Shown here piece by piece: positions 16,960 through 55,660 of a stretch of DNA of 64,000 nucleotides. Origin of the DNA: Owenia fusiformis (taxonomy: Eukaryota > Annelida > Polychaeta > Sabellida > Oweniidae); NCBI GenBank assembly GCA_903813345.2, contig CAIIXF020000003.1:13468931-13532930 (forward strand), given 5' to 3'. The translations under genes were made by a program, and so were the position numbers. How positions within the stretch are numbered: position 1 is the first letter of the stretch; each line of letters starts with the position of its first letter. The notes beneath the pieces were generated by a model. That model saw only the letters and a program-made list of their open reading frames with translations, did not search any database and was not told where the DNA came from.

Positions 16960-18245
16960 TATGTTCTGTATAGTATTTCATTGTTTCAAGTATGACTTAT
17001 TTTCAATGCTCAATACAGTATTTAAATTTTTTGTTCATTATTTCAATGTTCTATACATGATTTCAATGTCTGATACAGTAATTCAATGTTCTATACAGTA
17101 ATTCATTGCCTGATACAGTACTTCAATGTTTTATACAGCAATTCAATGTCTGATACAGTATTTCAATGTTCTATACAGTTATTCAATGGTCTATACAGTA
17201 ATTCAATGTCTGATACAGTATTACAATGTTCTATACAGTAATTCATTGCCTGATACAGTATTTCAATGTTCTATACAGTAATTCAATGTCTGATATAGTA
17301 TTTCAATGTTCTATACAGTAATTCATTGTCTGATACAGTATTTCAATGTTCTATACAGTAATCTAATGTTCTGTACAGTAATTCAATGTCTGATACAGTA
17401 TTTCAATGCTCTTTACAGTAATTCAATGTCTGATACAGTATTTCAATGTTCTATACAGTAATTCAATGTCTGATACAGTATTTCAATGTTCTATACAATA
17501 ATTCAATGTCTGATACAGTATTTCAATGTTCTATACAGTAATTCATTGTCTGATACAGTATTTCAATGTCTGATACAGTAATTCAATGATCTATACAGTT
17601 ATTCAATGTCTGATACAGTATTTCAATGTTCTATACAGTAATTCAATACCTGATACAGTATTTCAATGTTCTATACAGTAATTCATTGTCTGATACAGTA
17701 TTTCAATGTGCTATACAGTAATTCAAAGCTCTATACAGTTATTCAATGTCTGATACAGTATATCAATGTTCTATACAGTAATTCAATACCTCATACAGTA
17801 TTTCAATGTTCTATACAGTTATTCAATGTCTGATACAGTATTTCAATGTGCTATACAGTAATTCAAAGCTCTATACAGTTATTCAATGTCTGATACAGTA
17901 TATCAATGTTCTATACAGTAATTCAATACCTCATACAGTATTTCAATGTTCTATACAGTTATTCAATGTCTGATACAGTATTTCAATGTTCTATACAGTA
18001 ATTCATTGTCTGATACAGTAATTCAATGCCTGATACAGTAGTTCAATGTTCTATTCAGTAATTCAATGTCTGATACAGTATTTTAATGTTCTGCTCGGTA
18101 ATTCAATCTGATACAATATTGCAATGTTCCATACAGTAATTCAATGTCTGATATGTATTTCAATGTTCTGTCCAGTATTTTGATTTATGTTCAGTATTTC
18201 AATGCTAACAGAATTTCAATGTTTGATACAGGATTTCAATGTTCT
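16960..18245. repeat. Satellite array, 20-bp monomer in 40-bp dimers
   Basis: Alternating 20-bp units of the type 'attcaatgtctgatacagta' and 'tttcaatgttctatacagta', about 60 units, decaying at both edges. A 140-bp shift repeat (17701-17800 versus 17841-17940) shows a later, larger duplication. It lies downstream of the GPS2 gene. No spacers, so it is not a CRISPR array. Confidence 0.95.
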
Positions 18246-18817: not shown

Positions 18818-21800
18818 CTTGCCCTGGCTATGGGATACTGGGGTTTGATATGGGGCAGTATGACTTGGGCCTTGGGTCCTCACAGGATACCCTGACACAA
18901 TGCTGCCCTGAAAAGAAATTAGGAATCACAATTAGAATTGAAAACGATACAGGATATGTAGATTGAAATATTAAAGGGGAGTTTGTACATTGCAGAACAA
19001 AAATTCACGATGTTCATGTTTCACCCCGGACACAATCCAGAAAGAAAACAATGCTGACTATCTTAGTTTATATGAAAGATTGAGAGCAGAATACTGTAAT
19101 TTAGATTTAAAAATGATTTAAACAGATTTAAAATTCGGATCTCTGAAAATGTTCAACTTCAGTTGCTTTTTTGGACTTACTGACTTCATTTCAAAATCTA
19201 ATACATTCATTGAACTTGGAAAGTGTACCTTTTGTGGTGGAGGAGCCTGCTGTTGTATGGGTAAACCTTGCAGACCCTGGGGCATCTGGGTGCCACCCTG
19301 CTGGGGTAGTGTCATCTTACCCCTCTGGCCAGGATGCTATAACATATTGTTGCATACAATTATATTTAATCGTTCCAAGTTATTAATTTCATTTTGTTTT
19401 TCTGTTCAGGGGTTTCATGTGTTGTCTTTTATCCGAAATTATAATGAAAACGCTGAAACTTGTAAAATAATAGTTAATTGTAACATGTGGGGTGGTCATT
19501 TCTAATTATAATTTTATGCCTGCACATATACATGAACACCATTTTCTCAAAAAAGGAGTATTAAAGACTAAAACCAAGTATTAACCTGTCCAGGTATTTG
19601 CTGCTGGCGTTGATATTTTTCATCACTAAATCCAGATTTTTTGTTGGCATGCTCCAGTTGCTGTAGCGATAGATTAGAACCATGTGGGTGACTGTAACCT
19701 AGAAAAAAACAAGAACAACATATAACAAAAAATTATGAATTCAAAACATTATTGCTTTTACCAAAAATATATGAACAAAAAATATGTGAGAAGACATATT
19801 TTAATTGAACATTTTAACTTTTGACTATTGTCTTCAGCTTCTTGTTTTGGATATCATGTTGATACCACCTAATGTTAGATGAATCAATCAATGGGAACAT
19901 CTCTCAAACTATTGTTTAGCCAGTCCTGTTAAAGGGTGAGCAAAAATAAATCTAACCTGAGGAAATATTATTTTGGCACAATTTAACCTTGTTCAATGTT
20001 CTTTGAATGTATCAAGTGTCACGGGTCTATTCCAAATGGTAATCAAATGATTTTATGAACATTTTACAAAACATGCTCCAAATGCCAGCCACTTCATTTG
20101 AGGCAGACTTGAACACATGGGATAAAATCCCTTGTTCAAACTCCCTGGTGCTCCTGGCTATCCAGAGTTGTTGGTGTAAAAATTAGCTTTGAGACAGCCC
20201 GAGGCTTGTCGTGAAATAAGACTGGCACTTTGAGCATGTTTTGTATAATACCCATGAAATCGTTTCTGTTTCATTTTCTTTATTGTCTTTTATACAACCA
20301 TTTAATAAAATGCAACTTACTTGCTTGAGATGTCTGTGGTCGACCCGGAGCTGCAGGAGATGACATTCTGTGCATGGCCCCCTGGGGATATCCTCCAGTG
20401 TAATGATCCGTCAGCTGCTTTTGCTGGTGGGCATAATGGCTGGGGTAGGAGGAGAATGCAGAGGAGCCTGGGGGTGCATACTTTGCAGCAGCTTGGGCTG
20501 TAGAATATGCAGGCTGCGATTGTTGGTAGCTGTGTTGCTGTTGTCCAGACTGGCTGGCATGTTGGCCTGACTGGCTGGCATAAGTTGTATGCTGACTTGT
20601 ATGGGAGGCTGGAGTCTCTGAAAGATATAACACTGAATTAGCTGTGCTGTTGTTGACCTGACTGACTGGCATTAGCTGTATGCTGACTTGTATGGGAGGC
20701 AGGAGTCTCTGAAAGATATAACACTGAATTAGATGTGCTGTTGTTGACCTGACTGACTGGCATTAGCTTTATGCTGACTTGTACGGGAGGCAGGAGTCTC
20801 TGAAAGATATAACACTGAATTAGCTGTGCTGTTGTTGACCTGACTGACTGGCATAAGCTGTATGCTGACTTGTATGGGAGGCAGGAGTCTCTGAAAGATA
20901 TAACACTGAATTAGCTGTGCTGTTGTTGACCTGACTGACTGGCATTAGCTGTATGCTGACTTGTACGGGAGGCAGGAGTCTCTGAAAGATATAACACTGA
21001 ATTAGCTGTGCTGTTGTTGACCTGACTGACTGGCATAAGTTGTATGCTGACTTGTATGGGAGGCAGGAGTATATGAAAGATATAACACTGAATTAGCTGT
21101 GCTGTTGTTGACCTGACTGATTGGCATTAGTTGTATGCTGACTTGTATGGGAGGCTGGAGTCTCTGAAAGATATAACACTGAATTAGCTGTGCTGTTGAT
21201 GACCTGACTGACTGGCATTAGCTGTATGCTGACTTGTATGGGAGGCAGGAGTCTCTGAAAGATATAACACTGAATTAGATGTGCTGTTGATGACCTGACT
21301 GACTGGCATTAGCTGTATGCTGACTTGTATGGGAGGCTGGAGTCTCTGAAAGATATAACACTGAATTAGCTGTGCTGTTGATGACCTGACTGACTGGCAT
21401 TAGCTGTATGCTGACTTGTATGGGAGGCTGGAGTCTCTGAAAGATATAACACTGAATTAGCTGTGCTGTTGATGACCTGACTGACTGGCATTAGCTGTAT
21501 GCTGACTTGTATGGGAGGCTGGAGTCTCTGAAAGATATAACACTGAATTAGCTGTGCTGTTGTTGACCTGACTGACTGGCATATGTTGTATGCTGACTTG
21601 TATGGGAGGCTGGAGTCTCTGAAAGATATAAAAATGAATTAAAACGTGTTAAAATATCACAACTTAATTGCAATTAAAAAGATCGTCAGTGTTGTTATTT
21701 TTAGTACTTCATAATATGACTTACTGTGTGGGTATTGAGGTTGTTGCGGTTTCTGGGCACCCTGGGAATATCCTGCGGGGAACTTCTGTTCAGCATAACC

Positions 21801-30869: not shown

Positions 30870-33800
30870 TCACAGACGTGATATGATAGTGAAACTCGTG
30901 TATATATAATAACTAACAATATGAATTAATTCTTCATTTGTTGATGCATCTAAATCATCTTTTCCAAAAAGTAAAAATTGTAATTTATCATTCAAATTGT
31001 AGCTGTTAAACAGGTTTCCTAAATTGTAAGTATGAAGGCCTGCAATGAGGTTGATTCTTTCATCATGGAGCAGTGGGCAATTTAAAAGAAAATGCAAGGT
31101 AGTCAATGGAACACCACATTTACACAAAGGGTCACTAATGTCATTAAAGTTATGTGCATAAAGGTGTGCTTTAAGTAAAAGGCCACACCTGAGTCTATTA
31201 AAAGGTATTTCAATATGTCTGGGTAAGGTCACATTCAATTTAGAAGTTGGAATTAAAGAGACTGGGCTCTTGTGTTCTCTTACTAATCTTTTAAACCTAG
31301 AAATAGGTTGACCCATTCTAGTATCTGATGGCAAATTATTCCATAAAGTTATAGATTGGAAGATGGTAGTTTTTTTAAAAGAGAAGCTAAGGCGAGTTGG
31401 GAGAACATAATCTCTTTGATGTCTTAAGGGGCGGACCGGTATATGTTCATATTTCCGAAGTAAGTCACAAATAAATGGAGGATTAATGTTATACCTGCAT
31501 TTAAAAGTAAACATGTTTAAGTGCTCAATTCTTCTGGTTGTTAGCTGTTTCCAGTTTAAAGAGTTTAAAACTTTGATAGTATTGGAACCATGTATAGCCC
31601 CAGAAACCAGGCAGGCTGCTCTGTAGTGAAGTCTTTCAAGAGCTTGTAATTTCATGTTAGATGCCTTGTTGTAAATGACATCACAATAGTCAAAATGAGG
31701 CATAATGTAAGTATTATATAATATCTCTAAGTGCTGACTATTTAGAATTTTACTCAGCTTTATCATCGGTCTCAAAAGAGAAGTAACTCTTTTTATTATC
31801 TGGTCAATGTGATAATTAAAGTTAAGGTGAATATCAAAATTAAGGCCAAGATGTTTGTGATTCTCACAGCTAGGAATAAAATCAGCACCTAATCTCAAAG
31901 GTGGTGGATGAGATAAAATGTTCCTTCTAGAAAAAATCATATCTGCACTTTTTTGAGCTTTGAATTGCATCTTCCAGGTGGCAGCCCAGAGAGCAAGCTT
32001 GTCTAGATCACTTTGGATTGGCTCGTGAATATTGAAAAACACTTCATTTTTTTCGTATGGACAATAAATTGAGGTGTCATCAGCAAAAATGAACGATTTT
32101 GAAACAAGCCCATCAGGCAGATCGTTGATATATATTAGAAATAGCAGGGGTCCAAGGACAGACCCCTGTGGTACACCAGCATTGATGACAAAATTATCGG
32201 TCTGCATATTAGGCTCATTTTGATTATTCATACTATTGGAAGACCATTTTGAAAGTGTACCGTTTACTTTGACTCGAACTCTCCTATTTTCTAAGTATGA
32301 CGTCATTAATTTGACAAAGTTCAGGTTACATCCATAACCCTTAAGTTTGGATATTAATAATTTGTGTGGGACTAAATCAAATGCAGAAGTTAAATCTAAA
32401 AATACTGATCTGACATTTTTGTTATCATCGATGTTTTCATGAATATCATGCACTATGTTAATAAGTTGGTTGACAGTATTATGTTTAGGTAGAAAACCAC
32501 TTTGAAGCCGATAAATAAGATTTTGCTGCAGAAGGTGAGTCAAAAGTTTTTTGTGGATTATTGATTCTAGGATTTTGGAGATTGAGCTAAGCAGGGTCAC
32601 TGGTCTGTAATTAGAAGCTAGTCCTCTATCTCCTTTTTTGAAAATTGGGACAATTGTACCTTCCTTCCAAATATCAGGAAAGGTGTTTTCTTGAAATATT
32701 CTATTAAAAAGTAAGGAAAGTGGTTCGGCGATAGAATGTGCACATAATTTGAGCATTTTGTTTGATATTTCATCAGGACCATGTGCTTTTGTAATATCGA
32801 TATCATTAATTAGATTTAGAACTTCTTCAGATGAGGTTGACATGTCAGGCAAGATACTTTGAGTTCTTGGTCTAAAATAAGGAATATAGTTGTCATTGAT
32901 GTTCACAATGTTCTTATTGACAAAATATTTCATGAGGACATTTGCTTTATCAAAACTATTGACTGCTGATGAATTTGATGTTGGGTCAAAAAGAATAGGT
33001 ATGGATGAGACTTGGTTTTTACCAAGAAGTTCTTTAATCAGTGACCAATAGTCCACAGAACCTTTAGATAAATTATCTATTTTATTTCTAATATTAAATT
33101 CATGTTCTGCTTTAGCTTCTTGGATTAATTGATTAACTTTTTGATTTTGAACAACATATTTTTCTCTGAACACAGGATTATTCGAAGCTTTAAATTTATG
33201 ATGAAATTTGTTTCTTTTATATATGGCTTTTTTGATTTTGCTTGTGAACCAAGGCTGATCATCAAACCGTGAGGAAATTGTTCTATTAGGAACAACTTCC
33301 TTGACTATTGAGAGAAAGGTATTTGCAAATCTAATAGCAGCATCGTTAACTTGAAAATCAAAGACAAAATTCCAATCAACTTCGGCAATTTTGAGATTTA
33401 GCAGGTTGGTATCGGCATCATCATAATACCACACGTTTTTTTTAATTGATGGTTCTCTTGGAATGCTGACTCTTATTTTAGTAATAAGTGTACAGTGATC
33501 AGAATTTCCTATTGGAGGTTCAACTGAGCTTGATAGAAGATGTTCAGAATCTGTAATCAGTAGGTCAATACAAGATTTGGAATTCATAGTAATCCTTGTT
33601 GGTTCAAAAATAAGTTGTTGAAGACCAAGATCAGTCAGAACATTGTTTAATTCAATACCAGCCATATTATTAATGTCATTATCATACCAGGCATTGTTTC
33701 TGGCATTGAAATCTCCTTTGATAATGACCCCATCATTTGGTTGCATTAACACATTGGAGATATTCTCCTTAAATTTTGATAAATATTGTCTAGTCTCATT

Positions 33801-34601
33801 CGCAGTTAAGGATGGTGACCGATAAAAAAATCCATACTTGAAAGTCTTATGTTCAGCCTTAATTGATATCCAGCAATTTGCTAGATCTTTAGACATGTCC
33901 AACTCACATACGTTAGTCTGAACAGTATCATGAACCCATAGAATAAGGCCTCTTCCCTCGTTCGTTGAATACTTTGGTTTGCCAAAACCTCTTATATTAA
34001 ACATATTTGATTCTAGATCATCCGTGGTAACATTGCCTGTTTCACAAAGTGATATTATGTGACAATTCTCTCTTGATGCATATTCTTTAAGATACTCTAG
34101 CCTAGCAAATGAATCTGCCTTGATACTATTAACATTACTAAATAAAATCTTTAAATTATCCATTGGACCAGGATTGCTCTCAACATCTCCTGACATGAGA
34201 AGAAGCAGTTGACATATGATACTAGGATTAAAAAAGAGCAATGTTGTTCCAGGAACACAACTTAAAGTTGCAACTACTACAGCAGTTTTGGCAATAACTA
34301 AAGATAAATTTCGATGTCTCCCTAACAATTTCTTGAATATACCGTATAGCATCATGGAACAAAGGCATATGTTGGCAACATGGCTTGTAAAGATTGTGGC
34401 AAACACTAAATATTTCAATAAAACAGGGTAATTATTTGTCAATAAGCAATATAACCCTACACAGATTAGTATGAGGGTTAAAATAAACATTTGGATATCA
34501 AAGACATAATTTGGTGATTTCTGCTCTGAATGGAAAGCTGGAATACTATATGAGTTGAAGAGCCCAACTGCTGATCTCCAAATTTGTAAACTAACAGGCA
34601 T
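30870..34601 (-). CDS. LINE ORF2: hydrophobic leader, 2A-like site, AP endonuclease, reverse transcriptase
   Basis: 1243 codons. Residues 1-136 form a leader with about four hydrophobic stretches (38-55, 60-90, 101-115, 119-136). It ends in a 2A-like site, G138-DVESNPG-P146, where ribosomes would skip between G145 and P146, releasing the leader from the enzyme. The AP-type endonuclease follows at once (about 149-377: catalytic E187, GDFNAR 296-301, SDH 367-369). The reverse transcriptase (about 640-900) shows 'PIFKKGDR', 'NYRPVTLL', 'FLDLTSAFD' (D736), 'GVPQGSVLGPLLF' (809-821) and FADD (839-842). A CxC...H...C knuckle near 1165 is typical of the group. All catalytic motifs are present, so the copy may be active. 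The ATG overlaps the stop of a 69-codon ORF as TAATG. Confidence 0.92.
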   Translation of the reverse strand: MPVSLQIWRSAVGLFNSYSIPAFHSEQKSPNYVFDIQMFILTLILICVGLYCLLTNNYPVLLKYLVFATIFTSHVANICLCSMMLYGIFKKLLGRHRNLSLVIAKTAVVVATLSCVPGTTLLFFNPSIICQLLLLMSGDVESNPGPMDNLKILFSNVNSIKADSFARLEYLKEYASRENCHIISLCETGNVTTDDLESNMFNIRGFGKPKYSTNEGRGLILWVHDTVQTNVCELDMSKDLANCWISIKAEHKTFKYGFFYRSPSLTANETRQYLSKFKENISNVLMQPNDGVIIKGDFNARNNAWYDNDINNMAGIELNNVLTDLGLQQLIFEPTRITMNSKSCIDLLITDSEHLLSSSVEPPIGNSDHCTLITKIRVSIPREPSIKKNVWYYDDADTNLLNLKIAEVDWNFVFDFQVNDAAIRFANTFLSIVKEVVPNRTISSRFDDQPWFTSKIKKAIYKRNKFHHKFKASNNPVFREKYVVQNQKVNQLIQEAKAEHEFNIRNKIDNLSKGSVDYWSLIKELLGKNQVSSIPILFDPTSNSSAVNSFDKANVLMKYFVNKNIVNINDNYIPYFRPRTQSILPDMSTSSEEVLNLINDIDITKAHGPDEISNKMLKLCAHSIAEPLSLLFNRIFQENTFPDIWKEGTIVPIFKKGDRGLASNYRPVTLLSSISKILESIIHKKLLTHLLQQNLIYRLQSGFLPKHNTVNQLINIVHDIHENIDDNKNVRSVFLDLTSAFDLVPHKLLISKLKGYGCNLNFVKLMTSYLENRRVRVKVNGTLSKWSSNSMNNQNEPNMQTDNFVINAGVPQGSVLGPLLFLIYINDLPDGLVSKSFIFADDTSIYCPYEKNEVFFNIHEPIQSDLDKLALWAATWKMQFKAQKSADMIFSRRNILSHPPPLRLGADFIPSCENHKHLGLNFDIHLNFNYHIDQIIKRVTSLLRPMIKLSKILNSQHLEILYNTYIMPHFDYCDVIYNKASNMKLQALERLHYRAACLVSGAIHGSNTIKVLNSLNWKQLTTRRIEHLNMFTFKCRYNINPPFICDLLRKYEHIPVRPLRHQRDYVLPTRLSFSFKKTTIFQSITLWNNLPSDTRMGQPISRFKRLVREHKSPVSLIPTSKLNVTLPRHIEIPFNRLRCGLLLKAHLYAHNFNDISDPLCKCGVPLTTLHFLLNCPLLHDERINLIAGLHTYNLGNLFNSYNLNDKLQFLLFGKDDLDASTNEELIHIVSYYIYTSFTIISRL

Positions 34602-34810
34602 TATCCAATGCCATCTCTTGCAGGACTACAACCAACAATTAATTCATTCTGCAACAAAAACAACAAGAAATGCCCATGAGAAAACAATTCAAGACAAACT
34701 GATTTAGAGTTAAGTGTCCTGCCAGAAGTTCTAAGAGTCACATAAACTGTAATATTCAGAAAACTAATCCAGGCAGATCTGACATTGGTATTAAGTCTAG
34801 ATGATGTCAT
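34601..34810 (-). CDS. Small upstream ORF of the LINE (possible ORF1)
   Basis: 69 codons, no recognised domain, ending in TAA that shares its last A with the ORF2 start (TAATG, 34603-34599). Such an arrangement allows termination-reinitiation, known for LINE SART1. Whether it is translated is unknown; it could be a chance ORF in the 5' UTR. Confidence 0.4.
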   Translation of the reverse strand: MTSSRLNTNVRSAWISFLNITVYVTLRTSGRTLNSKSVCLELFSHGHFLLFLLQNELIVGCSPARDGIG

Positions 34811-42289: not shown

Positions 42290-43812
42290 TCAACGAGAAT
42301 TAACCAGTGACGTCAGTCTATTTGTAAACAAATAACACGTGGAGCGGACGGAGCAACATTACAACAGCGTTATAAATTCAATTTGTTCAGGAATTTATTA
42401 GTCATTTATTATCATTATCCAGATTGATTTTAGTCATTTATAGTAAATAGAGCGGGAATATTCATTAAGAAGGCCGAGGTAATCAAGTGGTCATGTGTTT
42501 GAAGTTAAAAGTCAAAGTTCAAAAATTGCATATCTCGTAAACAAATAACACTCGGAGCGGCCGGAGCAACATTACAGAAATATTTACAAATTCAATTTGT
42601 GCGGGAATTTATTAGTCATTTATTATCATTATCCCGATTGATTTTAGTCATTTACAGTAAATAGAGCGGGAATATTCATGAAGAAGGCCGAGGTAATCAA
42701 GTGGTCATTTGTTTGAAGTTAAAAGTCAAAGTTCAATAATTTGCATATCTCGTAAACAAATAACACGCGGAGCAGACGGAGCAACATTACAGAAATATTT
42801 ACAAATTCAATTTGTGTGGGAATTTATTAGTCATTTATTATCATTATCCCGATTGATTTTAGTCATTTACAGTAAATAGAGCGGGAATATTCATGAAGAA
42901 GGCCGAGGTAATCAAGTGGTCATGTGTTTGAAGTTAAAAGTCAAAGTTCAAAAATTGCATATCTCGTAAACAAATAACACTCGGAGCGGAAGGAGCAACA
43001 TTACAGAAATATTTACAAATTCAATTTGTGCGGGAATTTATTAGTCATTTATTATCATTATCCCGATTGATTTTAGTCATTTACAGTAAATAGAGCGGGA
43101 ATATTCATGAAGAAGGCCGAGGTAATCAAGTGGTCATGTGTTTGAAGTTAAAAGTCAAAGTTCAAAAATTTGCATATCTCGTAAACAAATAACACGCGGA
43201 GCGGACGGAGCAACATTACAGAAATATTTACAAATCCAATTTGTGTGGGAATTTATTAGTCATTTATTATCATTATCCCGATTGATTTTAGTCATTTACA
43301 GTAAATAGAGCGGGAATATTCATGAAGAAGGCCGAGGTAATCAAGTGGTCATGTGTTTGAAGTTAAAAGTCAAAGTTCAAAAATTGCATATCTCGTAAAC
43401 AAATAACACTCGGAGCGGACGGAGCAACATTACAGAAATATTTACAAATTCAATTTGTGCGGGAATTTATTAGTCATTTATTATCATTATCCCGATTGAT
43501 TTTAGTCATTTACAGTAAATAGAGCGGGAATATTCATGAAGAAGGCCGAGGTAATCAAGTGGTCATGTGTTTGAAGTTAAAAGTCAAAGTTCAAAAATTT
43601 GCATATCTCGTAAACAAATAACACGCGGAGCGGACGGAGCAACATTACAGAAATATTTACAAATTCAATTTGTGTGGGAATTTATTAGTCATTTATTATC
43701 ATTATCCCGATTGATTTTAGTCATTTACAGTAAATAGAGCGGGAATATTCATGAAGAAGGCCGAGGTATCAAGTGGTCATGTGTTTGAAGTTAAAAGTCA
43801 AAGTTCAAAAAC
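42290..43812. repeat. Tandem array, 214/215-bp units in 429-bp dimers
   Basis: Seven units located by 'aggccgaggt' at 42471, 42685, 42900, 43114, 43329, 43543 and 43758. Two types alternate: one with 'cactcgg...gtgcggg' and a 5-A/2-T junction, the other with 'cacgcgg...gtgtggg' and one extra T. Non-coding. Confidence 0.95.
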
Positions 43813-45060: not shown

Positions 45061-48000
45061 ATGGCTTCTCATGGTGAATCTGGTGCACAAGGGGGTGGGT
45101 CTCAATCCTCCAAGGATGCAGAAATTATGGAGCTTCAAAGACAGAACCAAATGATGCGAGAAAAACAAGCTAGAATGCTCTCAAATATTCCACCTGAGCA
45201 AAGGATGCAAATGGAACGAAGGCAGATGATGCAGAGACAACAGATGATGCAGCAGAATGTTGCGATGGGTCAAACCCCACAGGCTGATGTGATCAGGCAG
45301 AAAAAACAACTTGAACTAAAAGAACAGGCTTTGGCTATAAAGCAGAAACAAATTCAGGTTGCAGCCATGGAGCTAGAGGTGAAGAAAAAGAGACAGGAAA
45401 TGGAGACCAATGTGAAACAGTTGACATCTAAGTCAAATCAAGGGAGTGTTCCAGATGATGAAACTGGAGCTGATGATAACAACGAGAAATCATCTGATAA
45501 TGTTGATCAGTCTGTGAAACCAGACAATCAGGCTGACTCTGAACTCCAGGATGCTTTGGACACAATGGGCTTACCAATGGGTTTTGGGAGAGGATTTGGA
45601 CATCAAACTGAAAAGGAGAAACTCTCCAAAACAAGTGAAAGTGAAAAAAACAAAACTCCAAAAAAGCGAAAACCAGGTTTTAGTGATGAAATAGAAATTG
45701 AGGAAAGAATGGAGAACCGTGGAGAAATGAGGGGGAATTGGGGAGGAATGATGGGGAATCATGGTGGTATGATGCAAAATCTGGGTTATCGTGGTGGAAT
45801 GATGGGAAATCGAGGGGGAATGATGGGATATCATGGAGGATTCATGAGAGGTCACAGAGGAATGATGAGTAACCAAGGGAGATTTCCAAATTTCCCAAAT
45901 GACATTCAGACTGGTCTCCAAAGAGACATGATCTTATCTAGACAAGAATTTCAAAACAAGCTGGATAGCGTAACATATGGCCAGACATCAATGAACGAAC
46001 CTAATACATATGAATTTCAAGATAGACTACCTTTGAAAGACAAGGAGGACAAGCACAATGATGATGATAATGATGAAGAGCCTGATCCAGAACAAGATGC
46101 ATTAGACAGTATGGGTTTACCTATGGGATTTGGGAGGGGTTTTGGAAACAGAACTGTAGAAAAGGCCAGGGGCAACTATGGGAAAAAGAAAGAGAGAAAG
46201 CAGCAACGAGAGTCGTCCATATTGGGTGCCTTTCCAGGGCAATGTTGGATTGGAGATCAGAGGGCACCACCACAGGGATTTCAACAATATGGGCAAGGAC
46301 GTGGCTATGATTATTATCAAGATGATTATGGTTATCAGCAATACTATAACATGCAGCAACAAATGATGCCTTTTTACCCAGAAGTCCCATATGATCAACG
46401 TTACAATCAAACCAGGAATATCACAAATTGGCCTTTCGAGAGACTGGAAGGTAAAGAAGTAGATGAAAAGGAGGCTGAATATAGTTGGGCCACTGGCTAT
46501 GCTGGCAATTTGAACTTCGATATTGACAAGGCCAAACGGGAAAGATGTGAAAAGTTGAAAGCAGCTAAAGAGCAGGCTTTGAAAGAAATTGGTCAGGAGG
46601 ATGAAAATAATGAAACTACAGAAGACAGCAAAAAGACCGAGACAGTTGGACTATCCATAGAGGAAAGAGCTGCCATGGGGCTAAAACCCAGGAGAACTCT
46701 ACCTGGACTTGGAGCAAATAAAGATAAAGAGGGTGATGAGCCAATGAATATTGATGTGCCTGATCCTAAATCTGATGAGTACAATGTGCCATTCTACAGT
46801 GGTTATTTTGTGGGTGGTGGCTCACTGGTTAGCAAAGACCGAGCTAAGCTACATGATGATGAAACTGACTATGCTAATGAGCCAATGGAGGTTACAGAAG
46901 AGGGAACAAAGTCTAACTTTATTGGCCCAGAACAGCCAAACATACGCCAGGCTCCAGGTGATCAAGATGCTTACATGGATGAAAATGTAAGTGCAAATAT
47001 GGTAATGCCCATTAATGATGATGACATTGTTGCTCCGAGAGCACCGATGAGACCTGATTGGAAAAAGGATTACTATGACGATCATGAGGATCCAAAGTAT
47101 CGTAACAAAAACCTTCAACATGTTCCAAAGAAGATCTACAAACTTGACACAGAATTGGTCGAGAAATTTGAAAAGCTACGTCAGCTGTTGAAAGATGGCG
47201 AACCAAAACCCCAGCCTGGAGAAGAACCCCTTGGAAAAATACCCAGATTGCACAGTTGTACAAGCACTTCAGGACTAGAGGTATGTGGTGAACTTAAAGT
47301 AAATTGAAATGGAGGGTAAATTATGCCACCTGCCCTCACAAAAATAAATTAGAGAACCCCTTTGAGAAAGCTAGAACTTTGAATAACTACATTTTTAAAT
47401 GTAAGCATGATGTATAATCTCTGACCTTTCCTCCAGTACTCAATTGACTTTCTTCACAGGTGACCCTCATCCTTGATTCAGCTGGGCGAGTTAACAATAT
47501 TCAGCGATTCACGTGTAAGCTGTTTATTGGAGATGTGTTCATTGTCAACGCAGATGGTCCTTCCAAACGTATGGCCAAATCAATTGCATATGCTCGTACT
47601 GAGGAGATGCTGATGAATGAAAAAACAAATACAAAGGCCTTGTTGATAACCCATGCTAGACTCCAACCAGAGGATACAGAAAATGCAATAAGCACGTTTA
47701 ATAGTGCCTCAAGTAAGTGATGCACTCACAATGACCTCCATTTTTGTGGCTTGTTTTTGGCTCACATAGTGAGCCTACGGGATCAACCAGGCATCCGTCC
47801 GTCCATTGGTCCGTCCGTTGGTCCGTCCGTCAACATTGGCCGCACAAATTAAAACTGCTGTTCAGATTGAGTCATATCCACATTCATTTTATGCATATCC
47901 ATAATGCCTATTTGACCTATCATCGCCATTTCCCAAGTTTGCCCGGTTTCCGAGAAATTGCTGATTTTGACGTCAAAAAGTCAAATTTTCTGTAAATACT

Positions 48001-51000
48001 AGGCACTTTGTTGAAGTAGAACTTTCAAATAACTGCTGTATATGCAACTTACGTTCTCTGAAGATTTCAAAGCTCTTGAAATTAAATTTTTTGGTGTTTA
48101 CTCTATAAAATTTGACATTTTCAGGGAACTGTCTCATGTATAAAGTCAATCATCATTGGCTGCACAAAACACTGTGTGAGCACAGGACCGTAGGTCCTTT
48201 ATTATTAACATTTAGTGCTACAAGTTTTAAAGTTTTGATGTTGTTATGGTCTCCATTTTTTGTGACGGCAATTGGCAGTTGGTGGTTGGCGGTTGACCAT
48301 CAGTGTCTGTAACAATTTCTTACACCTTCCAATAACTTGAAAAATACTGTTTAGACGGACTTCAAATTGACCAATTCTTTTTTTCAAAATCATCTACAAG
48401 TTCTCAGAAGTCCACATCTGATTTTAGATTTGAGATTTCACCTTCAATTACCTTCTCAGGGTAAAAAAACTTGCTTCTTTCAAATTGACCATTTTTTCAA
48501 AATCATCTACAGAGTTCTCAGAAATTCAAATCTGACTTTTTGAACTTATAATATCGTGAGCAACTAGGTGATGACATTTTGTCATGTTAATGCCTTGTCT
48601 AACCATTTGCAACGATTTTCAAGTAATTGTTTGTTTCTACATTTTAAGTACAACTTAGTCGACTCTCAAATTCCTTGTAATAATTGGAAAGAATATCAAA
48701 AAAGGAATCCAAGTCATAAAAACAATTCCTGTATTTGCGGAAATTGAGTTGGAATAATGTTTGGAGTTTTATAAAAACTTGTAAATATTTAAATTGCATA
48801 TTTTGATAATGTCATGAAATCTGACTTTCAGAGTCTAATAGTATTGAAACTAATGCAGCAGTGCTAGGAAAGAGACCAAAGAGACCATGGCATGAGCTTG
48901 TTATCCTGGAAAACAAGGACTTGAAGTGTAAGTTATTTAAGGATTTAAGCCCTAGACTATGTACGTCGACTGATATCATTCCTTGAAGATGTTATTTCAA
49001 ACTCTGGACGATATTCACAGAATTGAGTGCTAAGTTTAGGAAACAACACCCGAGCGGAATGAATTAGCCACAATACATTGAGTCCCGGGCTTAAATTCTT
49101 TTCATACTAGTGCAAAATATTTTCCTACAAATCAGCCAAAAGATACGCAATCTCAAGAGGAACATATTATCAATGAAACTTTTTGCAAGGGTCAAGTTTG
49201 CAAAGTATCAGTTTCAATCTGTAGAGTCAAGTTGTAACATTGACAACCATTCAACAAATGACATTGGGTGGGTTGTTGGTTATATAATGCAGTGCAGTTA
49301 TATGAAATAATGTTTTCAGATTGGCTGGAATCTGACACATCTCACCTAGCTATGTGTGAAATATAGTTTAAGAACATCTCAAAAGTGATCTTCATTTGAG
49401 GCAATCTTATATGCAGATTTGCCCCCCCCCCCTATGATCTCTCAATCATCAGGAGGATGTATTATAAATCATTGGAAAGGTTATTCAATTCCCAGTATTT
49501 TGCCTCAAATTGAGCCAAATTGAGCCATTAATGACAAAGAAATGTATATTCTAAGAACAAAGGGGTTTATTGTTTCAGGTCAAAACTACTGACAATTTGG
49601 GTAGTTTACTTTGACCAGCCTAGGGTAGTTAGAGTCACAATTCTTTCACTAAAACATGCCTAATTCAATTTTAAGAAAAGCCAGAAAGTTTCAGATCAAA
49701 AGACATGGTTGGAAAAAAGTTATCAAAAAGTATTTATCTGAACCGCTAATTGTTTGAGGGTTAGGTGAGCATAAGCGGAACACCTCCCACTTGGAGCACT
49801 TTTTAGTGGTACCAAAGGTGTTCCACTTAATATAGATGGTTTTACTGTATTTTGAACTCGCTCTGTATTAAAATCAACAGGTGGCAGTGGTGGCCATAGT
49901 CTACTTCAGCAGAGTGCAGACTTCAGCAAGATGCTCCTAGAATGGAAATACACACGTTTCTATGTTGAAAATGAGAATGAAGAAGGAGCTGAAGAATTTA
50001 GAGTCACGTGAGTCATATATTATTACTTACTGTAGGTTGGGTTAATTTGGCGCCCGCTTTAATTTGGCGAATTTTGCGAAATTGAAACATTCGCCAATAT
50101 AAATCTTCGCCAAAATTTAGAATGAATTCCCGAGAATTATCTAGGGTATTTCGTCCAGTGTATTTAGGTCACTTCCTGTTTAGTTTTTTCCAAAAATATG
50201 AAAAAATATCTCTCATAAATTGGCTGCAGAACTGGTCAGTCACTCATTAATACTCTGGGAAAAACTAGAAAGGAAAAGCGCGGTATAGTAGCAGCATCGA
50301 TCGAGGTGCAAAATGTAAAGGATGATCTCACAAAAATGTACAAACCTGGTGAATATCGCCAGTGGTCCTCAAAAGAAAAAATGAACATAGCCAAACATGC
50401 CCATTTACATGGTAATTCGTGATTTTTCCCTCTTTCTACAATTTTGGTTGGATACTTTTTTTGTTGATTTTTATGGCACCACCAGAATCGGCGACATATG
50501 GTCTTTTTGTGGATTGTGTTCGGTGTTTGGCATTCAATGGTCAACATCTGTAACAAATGGCAGGTGGTGACATTTTGCATGTTGCTGCCTTGTGTCATTT
50601 TCATGTAGGTGCAAATTGATTTAAAAGTGGCTGCAACTTTCAAACTAACATTTGTACTGCATGAATGGGGAGGTCAATCAATAGTTGATACTTGATCAAC
50701 ATTCTACAATAATGAAAAGCACAAATAGTGACATTGGGAAAAACAAAACAACATAACTTTCTTTTTGGATATTAAAGAATAAATCGTGAATTGTTAAGAG
50801 ATAAATATGCTTTAATGTTTCAAAAATTATATATTGTTCCTTGAGGTTTGTAGATTTGCCGAGTTGCTGTTTCTTGTTTTTCAATTTGAATATAGTCTTG
50901 AATGAAAATGAGGGATCTATCGAATATTTTTCATTATCATAAATTGAACCTTTACATGTGTATTTTCCACCAGGTGCCAAGTAGCAATAGAAAAGCATAT

Positions 51001-54000
51001 TCTCGGAGAGGCCACAGCCAATGAGAAGAAAATCGCTAAACAGCTTGCTGGAGAAAAGGCTTTGGCGTACTGTGAACAAGTCTGCACAAAAGTCATTGTA
51101 AGTTCTGTCAACCTGTATCCAACAGCAAGTGATGTGGGTCATGTCAAAATGTGTAGCTATATTGCCAAAATACTTTTGCTAGTTATGCCAATTTGGCAAT
51201 ATATTACTGCTAATTTAGAAACACATGTACATTACATTTGTTCAAAATTAATAGAAAATTGGTACAGTATTAGTACAGAATTAGCAACATTTGGACAAAA
51301 TCTATAGCAGTAGTAAAGCTTGTCCAAAATTGTAAAAGAAATCTGATGCTCTGCTAATTTTCCGGAAAATAATCCTGATTTTTCCCAAATCAGGTGGTCG
51401 AGGGTATCTTAGATTTACAAAACTTGAAAATTCAGAGAATAATGAAATTCAAACTTGTGAAATATGCAAAATTTAATTTGAGCGAAATTGTGATTTCTCA
51501 AAAAAAAAGATTTTTCATATTTGGTGAAAAGACGTGTACAGGTCAGTGTTTTTCCAAAATTGCAACCACTAAAGCTTTTTGGTTGACGTTTTGGTGTCTT
51601 ATGCATATACTGTTAATACAATTATTCATTTAACAAAAAATGCTGCCTAATGGTGGAACTCTCATCAAATTAAAGATATGAAAATACTGTACCCTCAATT
51701 TAATGCCATAGGATTTTCATATAATGTGAAAGGATTATTTTATATTTGGAACTGTGCAAGTTGTGCTATATTTTCAGGGTCATGATTTCAAAACACAAAT
51801 TACATAGTTTCTGGATTTTAACAATGTCAGCTTGCTTCTCAAAAAACTCATTCCTAAATTCACATTTTTTGTCACTTTCACGTGAATGATCCGAGGCAGG
51901 TAGAGAAAATGTCACGCTCTCAACTCATTCCTAAATTCACATTTTTTGTCACTTTCAGGTGAATGATCCGAGGCAGGTAGAGAAAATGTCACGCTCTCAA
52001 CTATTTCCTAAATTCACATTTTTTGTCACTTTCAGGTGAATGATCCGAGGCAGGTAGAGAAAATGTCACCCTCTCAACTCATTCCTAAATTCACATTTTT
52101 TGTCACTTTCAGGTGAATGATCCGAGGCAGGTAGAGAAAATGTCACGCTCTCAACTATTTCCTAAATTCACATTTTTTGTCACTTTCAGGTGAATGATCC
52201 GAGGCAGGTAGAGAAAATGTCACGCTCTCAACTCATTCCTAAATTCACATTTTTTGTCACTTTCAGGTGAATGATCTGAGGCAGGTAGAGAAAATGTCAC
52301 GCTCTCAACTCATTCCTAAATTCACATTTTTTGTCACTTTCAGGTGAATGATCTGAGGCAGGTAGAGAAAATGTCACGCTCTCAACTCATTCCTAAATTC
52401 ACATTTTTTGTCACTTTCAGGTGAATGATCCGAGGCAGGTAGAGAAAATGTCACGCTCTCAACTCATTCCTAAATTCACATTTTTTGTCACTTTCAGGTG
52501 AATGATCCGAGGCAGGTAGAGAAAATGTCACGCTCTCAACTCATAATGGGGGGGTTAGAAAAGGATGAACCCAAGAAAGATGCAAACATGTTGAATAAAG
52601 GTCCTGGAGCTATGATTATGATGAAGTGGGGATGGGACGGTGTTAGCGCTCTCGGCAGGGGAGGTGGTCTTGTCGAACCTATCCAACCCATAGACTTAAC
52701 CTCGGTTTATGGATTTGAGTTCGCCTTTGGGAAGCGACGTGTTATCACCGATAGTTTCCGTGAGAAAGTAGAACTTATCGCGAAGAATTACATCCATTCT
52801 GATAACCCAGATGATTTGGTGTTCTGTGATGAATTTGGGAAAGAAGAACGTCAAATTATTCATCGTATTCTTACAAATGTAGGACTTAAAGCAAGTACAA
52901 AGACTTTCAAAGTAGGACACGGTCAGTTCAGATGTTTTTTAAGAGCCAGGCGTAAGTTCACATCAATTGAATTGGTGAACATGTTGAGACGCCACGGTGG
53001 AAAATCAAACATGTATACCCTAATGGAGGCCCCAATGATTGTCAGTGAACGTGGTAGGATCCAAGAGCGGAATACGAACATTGGTGGTTTTACAACAGTG
53101 AAATCAACTGCCAAATCAAGTGCACCCCCGCCATCCAAGGAAAACACTGCAAATCCCGCACTGAAGGCTATCTGGCAAAGCGATGCAGTAACTGGATTAG
53201 GTGGTAATGCTAGAGAGAAACTTAGCGCAAAGGGTATACAAGGAACAGCAGCCTCTGCCAGAGCTGCCACTGGGCAACATCAAAATAAATGGGGAAATCA
53301 ACAAGGTGGTAAAAAGTATTACAACCACAGACAAGTGCATGAAGTGCAAGGCTTTCAGGTTGTCAAACCAGACGCAGCTACCGGCAAGGTACCTGATAAT
53401 CGTCCCAAGATCCAAAAGACTCAGTTCACTCGTCAACCGGGACAGCCTGTCGTTTCAAACAAATGGGTGAAATCCGGATCATCAACAGCCGAGACCTACA
53501 AATCCCTACCGCAAAAACAATCTAGTAGTAATTTAGGAGCAACACCCAGCTCTAAACCCATCGGTGGATTTACCATTCCAAAGGTATCTAGCACTACAAC
53601 CTCTTCCCAGTCAAGCTATTCGGGAGTTAAAACTGGATATGAAACTTCGAGCAGCAAGCAAAGTCAAAATAACTATGCATCAGCTAAAGGTAACACCTCT
53701 GGATATAAGAGCCAGGGTAATGCTAGTAACTATGGATCGAGTGCTAGTAACTATGGATCGAGTGCTAGTAACTATGGATCTAGTGCTAGTAACTACGGAT
53801 CTAGTGCTAGCAACTACGGAGCTAGCGCTAGTAACTATGGTGCTCAAGGAAGTTATGGAAATCAAGCTGGGTACTCAACCCCTGCTAATTCAAGTGCCCA
53901 ATCTGTATATGGGACTCAAGGAAGTTATGGGACTCAAGGGAGTTATGGCTATGGGGCAGATAGTAGATATTCAATTCCAGTGGCCACCCCACCTCCTCCC

Positions 54001-54108
54001 CCTCCCCCAGAGGCCCCTGCCCAGTCTAGTTACATTACCACCCCCCAGAACACTTATGGAACAAATTATTCTCAGTATGGAGCTACTAATTATGGCCATC
54101 AATACTGA
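45061..54108 (+). CDS. NKRF-like RNA-binding protein (dsRBD, G-patch, R3H)
   Basis: Coding exons 45061-47280, 47460-47712, 48832-48927, 49881-50007, 50974-51097 and 52498-54108 join in frame to 1476 aa plus stop. The ATG directly follows an acceptor (tattttccag), so a 5' UTR exon lies upstream. Residues 1-740: Q/M-rich coiled coil, a duplicated 'MGLPMGFGRGFG' motif (about 168 and 352) and a GGMM-rich stretch. Exons 3 and 5-6 encode dsRBD halves ('GPSKRMAKSIAYARTEEML', 'NEKKIAKQLAGEKAL'). Exon 7 begins 'VEKMSRSQL', then a G-patch (975-1002) and R3H (1026-1092; R1058, H1062), the C-terminal order of human NKRF, which regulates XRN2 and rRNA processing. The tail is S/N/Y/G-rich with (SNYGSSA)n. 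Human NKRF is 690 aa; the long N-terminus is different, so orthology is likely but unproven. Confidence 0.85.
47743..47860. repeat. Dispersed repeat start in intron of the NKRF-like gene
   Basis: 'ggctcacatagtgagcct' followed by tandem 'ggtccgtccg' units. I recall this type of sequence from bivalve genomes. Its downstream end is not defined. Confidence 0.5.
51847..52545 (+). repeat. 77-bp tandem array replicating the splice acceptor of the last NKRF-like exon
   Basis: Nine exact-period units. The exon start 'gtgaatgat' falls at 51882, 51959, 52036, 52113, 52190, 52267, 52344, 52421 and 52498. Each unit is ttttttgtcactttcag/GTGAATGATCCG plus the first ~45 nt of the exon and a short linker. 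In the first unit the AG is changed to AC. Only the last unit continues into the exon; from any other the frame runs 'SQLIPKFTFFVTFR' into TGA. Confidence 0.95.
53720..53845 (+). repeat. 21-bp coding repeat (SNYGSSA)
   Basis: Six near-identical 21-bp units inside the last exon encode repeated S-N-Y-G-S-S-A. It makes a prion-like, low-complexity stretch. Confidence 0.9.
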
Positions 54109-54285
54109 TGAATCTAGTTACATTACCACCCCTCAAAACACTTATGGAACAAATTATTCTCAGTATGGAGCTACTAATTATGGCCATCAATATCGATGAG
54201 TCTAGTTACATTACCACCCCTCAAAACACTTATGGGACAAACTACTCACAGTATGGAGCTACTAATTATGGCCATCAATATTGAT
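54025..54285 (+). repeat. Three 88-bp copies of the C-terminal coding end and stop
   Basis: Units start at 54025, 54113 and 54201 and each encodes 'SSYITTPQNTYGTNYSQYG' through 'GHQY' and a stop. Only the first is translated in frame; 88 is not a multiple of three, and the other two lie in the 3' UTR. In unit 2 the first stop is changed to CGA but a TGA follows. Confidence 0.9.
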
Positions 54286-55660
54286 CTAAGAATAAAACGA
54301 AATGAAGAATATTCATCCATTGTTATCCTATGTTAAAAGCATAGGATATAGCACAGAAAGGAGTGAATGACTTTTATCCTGTATCTTGAATGTATAGGAT
54401 ATGCTGTTATCTCAAACAAGAAATGACGTATTGAGATATTATGGATGATGAAGTAATTTATCTCAAGGAAAAAATGACTTATTGAGATATAGCCTAATTG
54501 TAAATATTTTAATTAAATCAGCATAGCGAAAGGATAATCCTTGTGAGTTTTATCAAGTACAAAAATTAAATGTTCATGATATCTCCCAGGCCTCCCTTGT
54601 ATGCTCAGAGAGCTTTATTTAAAGGAAAAACGACTTATTGACATATTATTTGATGAAATCTCAAAGAAGAAAGAACCAATATGAGACGTATAACTGTACA
54701 TCTCGTAGTTATATAATCTATCAGTCTCCATGATATTCTAATCTTTTCAATACACAGAACATCTTATCTCAAACAAAAAAGGACTTATTGAGATATATAC
54801 ATCTAACTGTACAAAGTAGTATAATCAATCGAGTTTACATAATATCCTAAATCTGATCAATGCTTGGAGCATCTTATCTCAAACAAGAAAGGACTTCTTG
54901 AGATACATTCGTACATAGTAATATAATCATTTGGTGTAGGTGTTATAGGGTAACACATCTACATGATATCCTATATCTGTTCAATGCACGGAGCATCTTA
55001 TCTCAAACAAGAAAGGACTTATTGAGATACATTCGTACATAGTAATATAATCATTTGGTGTAGGTGTTATAGGGTTCTACATGATATCCTATATCTGTTC
55101 AATGCACGGAGCATCTTATCTCAAACAAGAAAGGACTTATTGAGATATATGTGTGTACATACTACATAGTAATATAATCATTTGGTGTAGGTGTAATAGG
55201 GTTCTACATGATATCCTATATCTGTTCAATGCACGAGCATCTTATTTCAAACAAGAAAGGACTTATTGAGATACATTCGTACATAGTAATATAATCATTT
55301 GGTGTAGGTGTAATAGGGTTCTACATGATATCCTATATCTGTTCAATGCACGGAGCATCTTATCTCAAACAAGAAAGGACTTATTGAGATATAATAGCAA
55401 GTAAATTGACTGTACTGTAAAACATGTAATTTTGGCTTCTTGGAATAGGTGATTTTCAAATTTTGAGGGGATGTGTTTGATACAGTTTGATGGTTTTGCA
55501 ATTGGAAAGTGAGAAGTGTGCCAAAATATACCTGTTTTAAAGTAATTTCATTCAATTGATGTGTTTATCGAATATAATATACATGTACATGTCTTCGGTC
55601 TGGTAGTATGTAGGACTTCTTTGCTATGTTGGTGTATGGTTTAAATAAAATATACTAACT
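54286..55660 (+). other. 3' UTR of the NKRF-like gene with 118-126-bp tandem repeat
   Basis: Five units marked by 'gcatcttatctcaaac' at about 54869, 54993, 55111, 55237 and 55355; weaker related units extend back to 54400. Each holds 'aaaggacttattgagata'. A polyadenylation signal AATAAA is at 55644-55649. Confidence 0.7.

Follow-up and report, generated by a model that had tools for sequence, protein, structure and literature searches.

A mirage-type minisatellite across the predicted last 3' splice site of a six-exon gene, with similar arrays near other exons of the same genome

The predicted last 3' splice site of a six-exon gene is repeated in a tandem array of nine 77-bp copies, and this array is a real and well-formed case of a known type of repeat, the mirage, which has been described in amphioxus as minisatellite-like tandem duplications of exon-intron boundaries (PMC3087553, PMC3902484). 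Very probably, the array is a tolerated duplication in which the copy joined to the exon, at position 52498, is used for nearly all mRNA while the additional, decoy copies are close to neutral; we infer the origin of the array, the choice of acceptor and the neutrality of the decoys from the DNA sequence. The arrays of this genome probably extend the mirage type to a new branch of animals, in which they are apparently not rare.

The 77-bp array and its host gene

Within the window, i.e. the complete 64,000-nt stretch of DNA that was analysed, six predicted exons on the plus strand join into one open frame of 1476 amino acids with all introns of the GT-AG type. In this joined model, exon 1 extends from the ATG at 45061 to 47280 and ends in the donor GAG|GTATGT; exon 2 (47460-47712) encodes a weak first dsrm domain (E = 0.0014 when taken alone, under the Pfam cut-off), and is followed by exon 3 (48832-48927) and by exons 4 (49881-50007) and 5 (50974-51097), which encode the first and the second half of a second dsrm, respectively, the latter exon ending in the donor ATT|gtaagt. 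The real last coding exon, exon 6, starts in phase 0 at 52498 and is closed by the TGA at 54108. Following the frames from all nine acceptors of the array, the one at 52498 is the sole choice that stays open to this point. A possible AATAAA is located 3' of the coding end (54291-54296). A further array, identified by TRF and in the sequence, consists of three 88-bp units over the gene's own stop codon (54025-54285, plus strand) and copies the last codons together with the stop codon into the 3' UTR.

On the joined exons, dsrm was recovered by Pfam in two stretches (E = 3.6e-11), R3H stayed under the Pfam cut-off (E 0.03-0.2), and a G-patch was absent from the Pfam matches of the gene's exons and of the joined protein. 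Of the two domains that the initial annotation had named, R3H is thus sub-threshold and the G-patch was not found. The label NKRF-like is plausible from the predicted order of the domains, as a statement of likeness and not of orthology. A search of PDB sequences with the protein gave a best E of 0.38, and a single-sequence structure model of the protein tail reached a pLDDT of 35 and was unusable.

The 77-bp array occupies positions 51845-52544 on the plus strand and comprises 9.09 units (TRF: period 77, 9.1 copies, 97% matches, score 1344; confirmed by a repeat search and by inspection of the copies), the copy number being that of one assembly. As read directly from the sequence, each unit joins the last 37 bp of an intron, closed by the AG, to the first 40 bp of an exon, and the repeat runs 47 bases into the real exon if the seven bases common to both array edges are counted. 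The first bases after the acceptors are 51882, where AC takes the place of AG, and 51959, 52036, 52113, 52190, 52267, 52344, 52421 and 52498, all preceded by AG. Copies 2, 4 and 8 are identical to copy 9, and copies 1, 3, 5, 6 and 7 are one to three bases apart from it, with eight substitutions in total. The tract preceding the AG contains 13 pyrimidines in 15 positions, which makes it the best among the gene's six acceptors, and the decoys have it in common. A search of the whole genome with two 77-bp units returned at least four matches, all of them inside the array.

Whichever of the eight upstream acceptors exon 5 is joined to, the copy that follows closes the frame with a TGA (AGG TGA), and the predicted product has 966 amino acids, 26 of which lie beyond the exon 5 junction; seven intact decoys lie between 51959 and 52421, and the most upstream acceptor, at 51882, is dead owing to its AC. 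Most of what had been annotated at the outset on this array is borne out: a pyrimidine tract, an AG and the start of the exon make up the unit, the AG is retained in eight of nine copies with AC in the most upstream one, and all eight upstream frames close, with loss of the protein tail. Two statements need to be amended, as the nine tandem copies had been called exact but are 97% alike with four of the nine identical, and as the predicted loss of domains holds for the tail but not for a G-patch, since none was detected.

Both edges of the array are formed by the 7-bp direct repeat AACTCAT, on the left at 51845-51851 and on the right, inside the real exon, at 52538-52544 (both read directly on the plus strand; 700 = 9 x 77 + 7). 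This arrangement points to slippage or microhomology as the origin, and a single-copy ancestor probably had two AACTCAT motifs 77 bases apart, flanking the splice site. A tandem duplication would have begun between these two motifs and would, by accident, have caught the end of the last intron together with the start of the last exon; the array would then have expanded by unequal exchange, with one and two units per step. Copies 3 and 5 have the variant CTATTT in common and copies 6 and 7 the variant CTG, a pattern which fits exchanges of monomers and dimers. Tandem repeats are prone to assembly error, and copies might have been added by mis-assembly. However, the copies have ordered private variants and exact edges, and nine different junction-array units are present in the same genome, so that we regard an assembly artefact as extremely improbable.

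A second acceptor-spanning array is located on the minus strand of the window (20560-21641; 91 bp x 11.9, from TRF and reading frames). Only the last of its 12 acceptors, at 20617, is open; all 11 upstream acceptors lead to stops, and one of them has AT instead of AG. The predicted donor for these acceptors, which run from 21618 to 20617, is at 21725, and another donor comes after the array at 20321. The inner decoys of this array have common bases that the functional boundary copy is without, as in concerted evolution.

Acceptor choice and the role of the decoys

For nearly all mature mRNA, the spliceosome would take the exon-joined copy at 52498, which may be favoured because it is the only copy backed by the full exon, whereas each decoy is followed by a short exonic piece and then by an intron-like stretch. 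The remaining copies would leave with the intron and be selectively near neutral. Older splicing work indicates that exon sequence can outweigh proximity among duplicated acceptors; near-identical upstream acceptors, on the other hand, are expected to compete strongly, as suggested by work on splice-site duplications. The sequence by itself gives no reason for the farthest acceptor to win, and this counts against the reading that we prefer. With eight and 11 decoys, respectively, the two arrays of the window are cases on which acceptor choice could be read.

The initial annotation had proposed that decoy use would switch the protein off. In a regulatory setting of this kind, the upstream acceptors would deliberately give a tailless form of 966 amino acids, which would either switch the protein off or serve as an inhibitor with the dsRNA-binding part retained. 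Seven decoys are intact and all give the same stop, as such a function would lead one to expect, and the stop of the shortened mRNA would be located in the last coding exon, so that classical NMD should be escaped: in the six-exon coding model no junction follows the decoy stops, and junction-dependent NMD is thus not expected, although an intron in the 3' UTR is conceivable. For the same reason, treatment with an NMD inhibitor would be poorly suited as a test of the 77-bp array. Against a regulatory function, like arrays occur at unrelated genes, at donors and, in one case, across a stop codon; the array is young and homogeneous; and the AGs of the decoys are kept no better than the rest of the unit. 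Decoy dinucleotides were changed at 2 of 38 positions and the other positions at 65 of 1528, a comparison which covers the two window arrays only (the copy finder missed degenerate copies in loci L024, L029 and L068), omits seven deviating positions in the first, leftmost copy of the 91-bp array (72 of 1535 if these are included) and counts shared ancestral changes more than once on both sides. The decoys thus appear to be neither specially retained nor specially lost, which argues against a needed switch and likewise against a strong cost, and the lack of any sign of such a cost would fit decoys that are rarely used. The copy nearest to the donor is the one without AG; this could reflect selection, but at odds of one in eight it may well be chance. 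On present evidence a regulatory switch, whether by an inactive form or by an inhibitor, is not supported, and we consider it very unlikely.

Each unit further offers two in-frame ways around truncation that the initial annotation left out of account, though both have weak donors. An upstream acceptor might be used and the transcript then be spliced onward, in which case decoy use would be harmless or would add VNDPRQ repeats. In a recursive variant, the onward step would start at the regenerated donor ATT|GTGAAT without leaving a trace. In a microexon variant, it would proceed from CAG|GTAGAG after a candidate in-frame exon of 18 nt, which is present in every unit (52498-52515 on the plus strand in the last copy, where it encodes VNDPRQ), and VNDPRQVNDPRQ joins would be predicted. 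AG|GTGAAT is found at each intact copy, the reading frame of the joined model is kept with one, two or three 18-nt inserts, and a potato gene is described as having gained an intron by duplication of an intron-exon boundary (PMC4974935). Yet both GTGAAT and GTAGAG match the donor consensus at six of nine positions and are without the G at +5, while the five real donors match at seven to eight positions and have it. The regenerated donor, with six of nine, equals the donor of the microexon instead of being stronger than the exon's own, as would be typical of a recursive site. The would-be intron between copies measures merely 59 nt, and GT follows four of the five internal acceptors of the gene, so that AG|GT is ordinary here. 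Onward splicing from a decoy is, in our estimation, quite improbable. On paper, the 77-bp unit already forms a candidate for a complete 18-nt in-frame exon plus a 59-nt intron.

Comparison with mirages and other boundary duplications

According to the two amphioxus reports, mirages occur in Adh3, the globin genes BflGb6 and BflGb9, PGBD5 and troponin C, their units measure 10-72 bp (Adh3), 60 and 108 bp (PGBD5) and about 150-160 bp (globins), and they leave regular splicing undisturbed (PMC3087553, PMC3902484). Length differences among haplotypes or within the soma are a further mark of mirages. As in these accounts, the arrays described here consist of tandem units over an acceptor or donor, with many decoys in which AG or GT is intact. 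The 77-bp unit lies across an exon-intron boundary, the functional boundary is the exon-adjoining copy in both window arrays, as judged by reading frame only, and arrays recur at several genes of the one genome. Similar to what is given for BflGb6, the inner copies of the 91-bp array resemble each other and the boundary copy is deviant; unlike BflGb6, for which three and six copies are given in the two haplotypes, the window arrays have nine and twelve.

In the host genome, a mir-2 cluster was identified with at least four matches within about 5 kb, three of them over the cut-off (60 of 155,227 candidates were scored); in the control search, Caulobacter matched below the cut-off. The mir-2 family marks protostomes. 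Unlike the amphioxus mirages, those reported here thus reside in a host that carries mir-2 and is probably a protostome. Other markers gave no indication of the host: neither the genome nor the controls (14 in the case of GFP) had a match to Pfam GFP or to mollusc haemocyanin, COX1 matched in 8 of 14 controls but not in the genome, so that the mitochondrial code could not be read, and guanidino kinases did not single out a phylum. At the gathering cut-offs of Rfam, nothing was found in the 64,000-nt window. A partly amphioxus-centred search of the open-licence literature yielded no mirage of a protostome, the printed cases that it brought up all being from cephalochordates. The term Mirage in a nematode paper denotes, in the relevant part of that paper, a class of transposons which is unrelated to boundary minisatellites.

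In the RdRp gene of potato, a duplication across an intron-exon boundary made a new intron with its donor from a formerly exonic part, as set out in a report that cites the Rogers model of such intron gain (PMC4974935). There as here, the boundary is duplicated and the exonic part of the upstream copy has a possible donor; the array described here differs by its nine copies, as opposed to two in the account of the potato gene, and by a new intron or exon which is only a candidate. A likeness to recursive splice sites or ratchet points, as portrayed in PMC8605326, consists in the AG that is immediately followed by GT as a possible donor. The present case departs from such sites in that its donor after the AG is weak, its intron spans only 1.4 kb and exons of the gene often start with AG|GT. 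Should mirages prove widespread beyond lancelets, they would provide natural experiments on the choice of the spliceosome among many near-identical sites, and perhaps also a path to new introns which could be followed by comparing individuals.

Arrays elsewhere in the genome

Seven more arrays at acceptors or donors were found near RRM exons, with splice sites that were assigned by eye on the basis of sequence and translation. Two are located at acceptors (L015, 133 bp x 3; L029, 54 bp x 2, 81%) and five at donors (L024, 29 bp x 8.7; L034, 103 bp x 2; L065, 25 bp x 5.4, truncated where the stretch ends; L068, 20 bp x 8, 79%; L084, 78 bp x 2.6, reaching the end of the stretch); those of L034 and L084 include about 5-6 exonic bases only. 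Among the nine junction-array periods (77, 91, 133, 29, 103, 54, 25, 20 and 78), two are multiples of three, and periods that are not bound to multiples of three would be expected if the sequence is treated as non-coding. The part of the six-exon gene that encodes the protein tail contains coding repeats (53721-53948) with periods of 21 and 18 bp, which, unlike those of the frame-free junction arrays, are divisible by three.

We applied TRF to 79 RRM windows, each consisting of a match +-200 bp and some of them overlapping. Of these, 30 were RRM loci, which make up 22 distinct stretches with a total of 78,015 bp, and 49 were added by match rank: 91 of 121 matches were without a locus, 42 of these 91 were not taken, and nine within the sampled ranks were skipped (four in long open frames, four inside sampled loci and one beside a sampled window). 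Nine arrays were obtained, four of which (L029, L065, L068 and L084) span the edge of the matched exon; the arrays of L015, L024 and L034 are at a distance from the matched exon and did not enter the test. With a period of at least 20 and a score of at least 50, four of nine compare with 1.0-1.6 expected by chance (P 0.011-0.055), and with a period of at least 15, four of the 14 arrays listed compare with 1.3-2.1 (P 0.03-0.14), where the cut-offs were picked after looking at the data and non-spanning arrays were classed by position, not exon by exon. Many tandem arrays were also present in fifteen random stretches that were scanned as unannotated sequence; 14 of them were 10 kb and one was 8.9 kb long, and 13 came from across the chromosomes and two from the flanks of the window. 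An enrichment of arrays at exon edges is suggestive at most, as the sample is small and lacks some long open frames, and a common repeat process that meets exon edges by chance is compatible with the numbers. It might be speculated that tandem duplication in this probably protostome genome is generally junction-prone, that it copies acceptors and donors repeatedly at more exon edges than chance would give, a few percent of the total, and that it thereby supplies material for new introns and microexons, but we consider this rather unlikely.

Further repeats in the window include a 214-bp x 7 array (96%) at 42324-43811, upstream of the six-exon gene, and, at 17001-18245, an array with a 40-bp period and higher-order periods of 140 and 180 bp. 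On the minus strand, 30870-34625 harbours an open frame of 1251 amino acids which, by eye, encodes the endonuclease and reverse transcriptase of a non-LTR retrotransposon. Elsewhere in the genome, L041 (C2:10000001-10010000) contains long 145-bp tandem arrays with a unit that has, by eye, tRNA-like T-arm sequence. Intronless open frames of 420 (L004, C10) and 432 amino acids (L005, C1) match mitochondrial creatine kinase, L004 being the frame whose match was tested, and are possible retrogenes; a partial creatine kinase copy lies beside L005 on C1.
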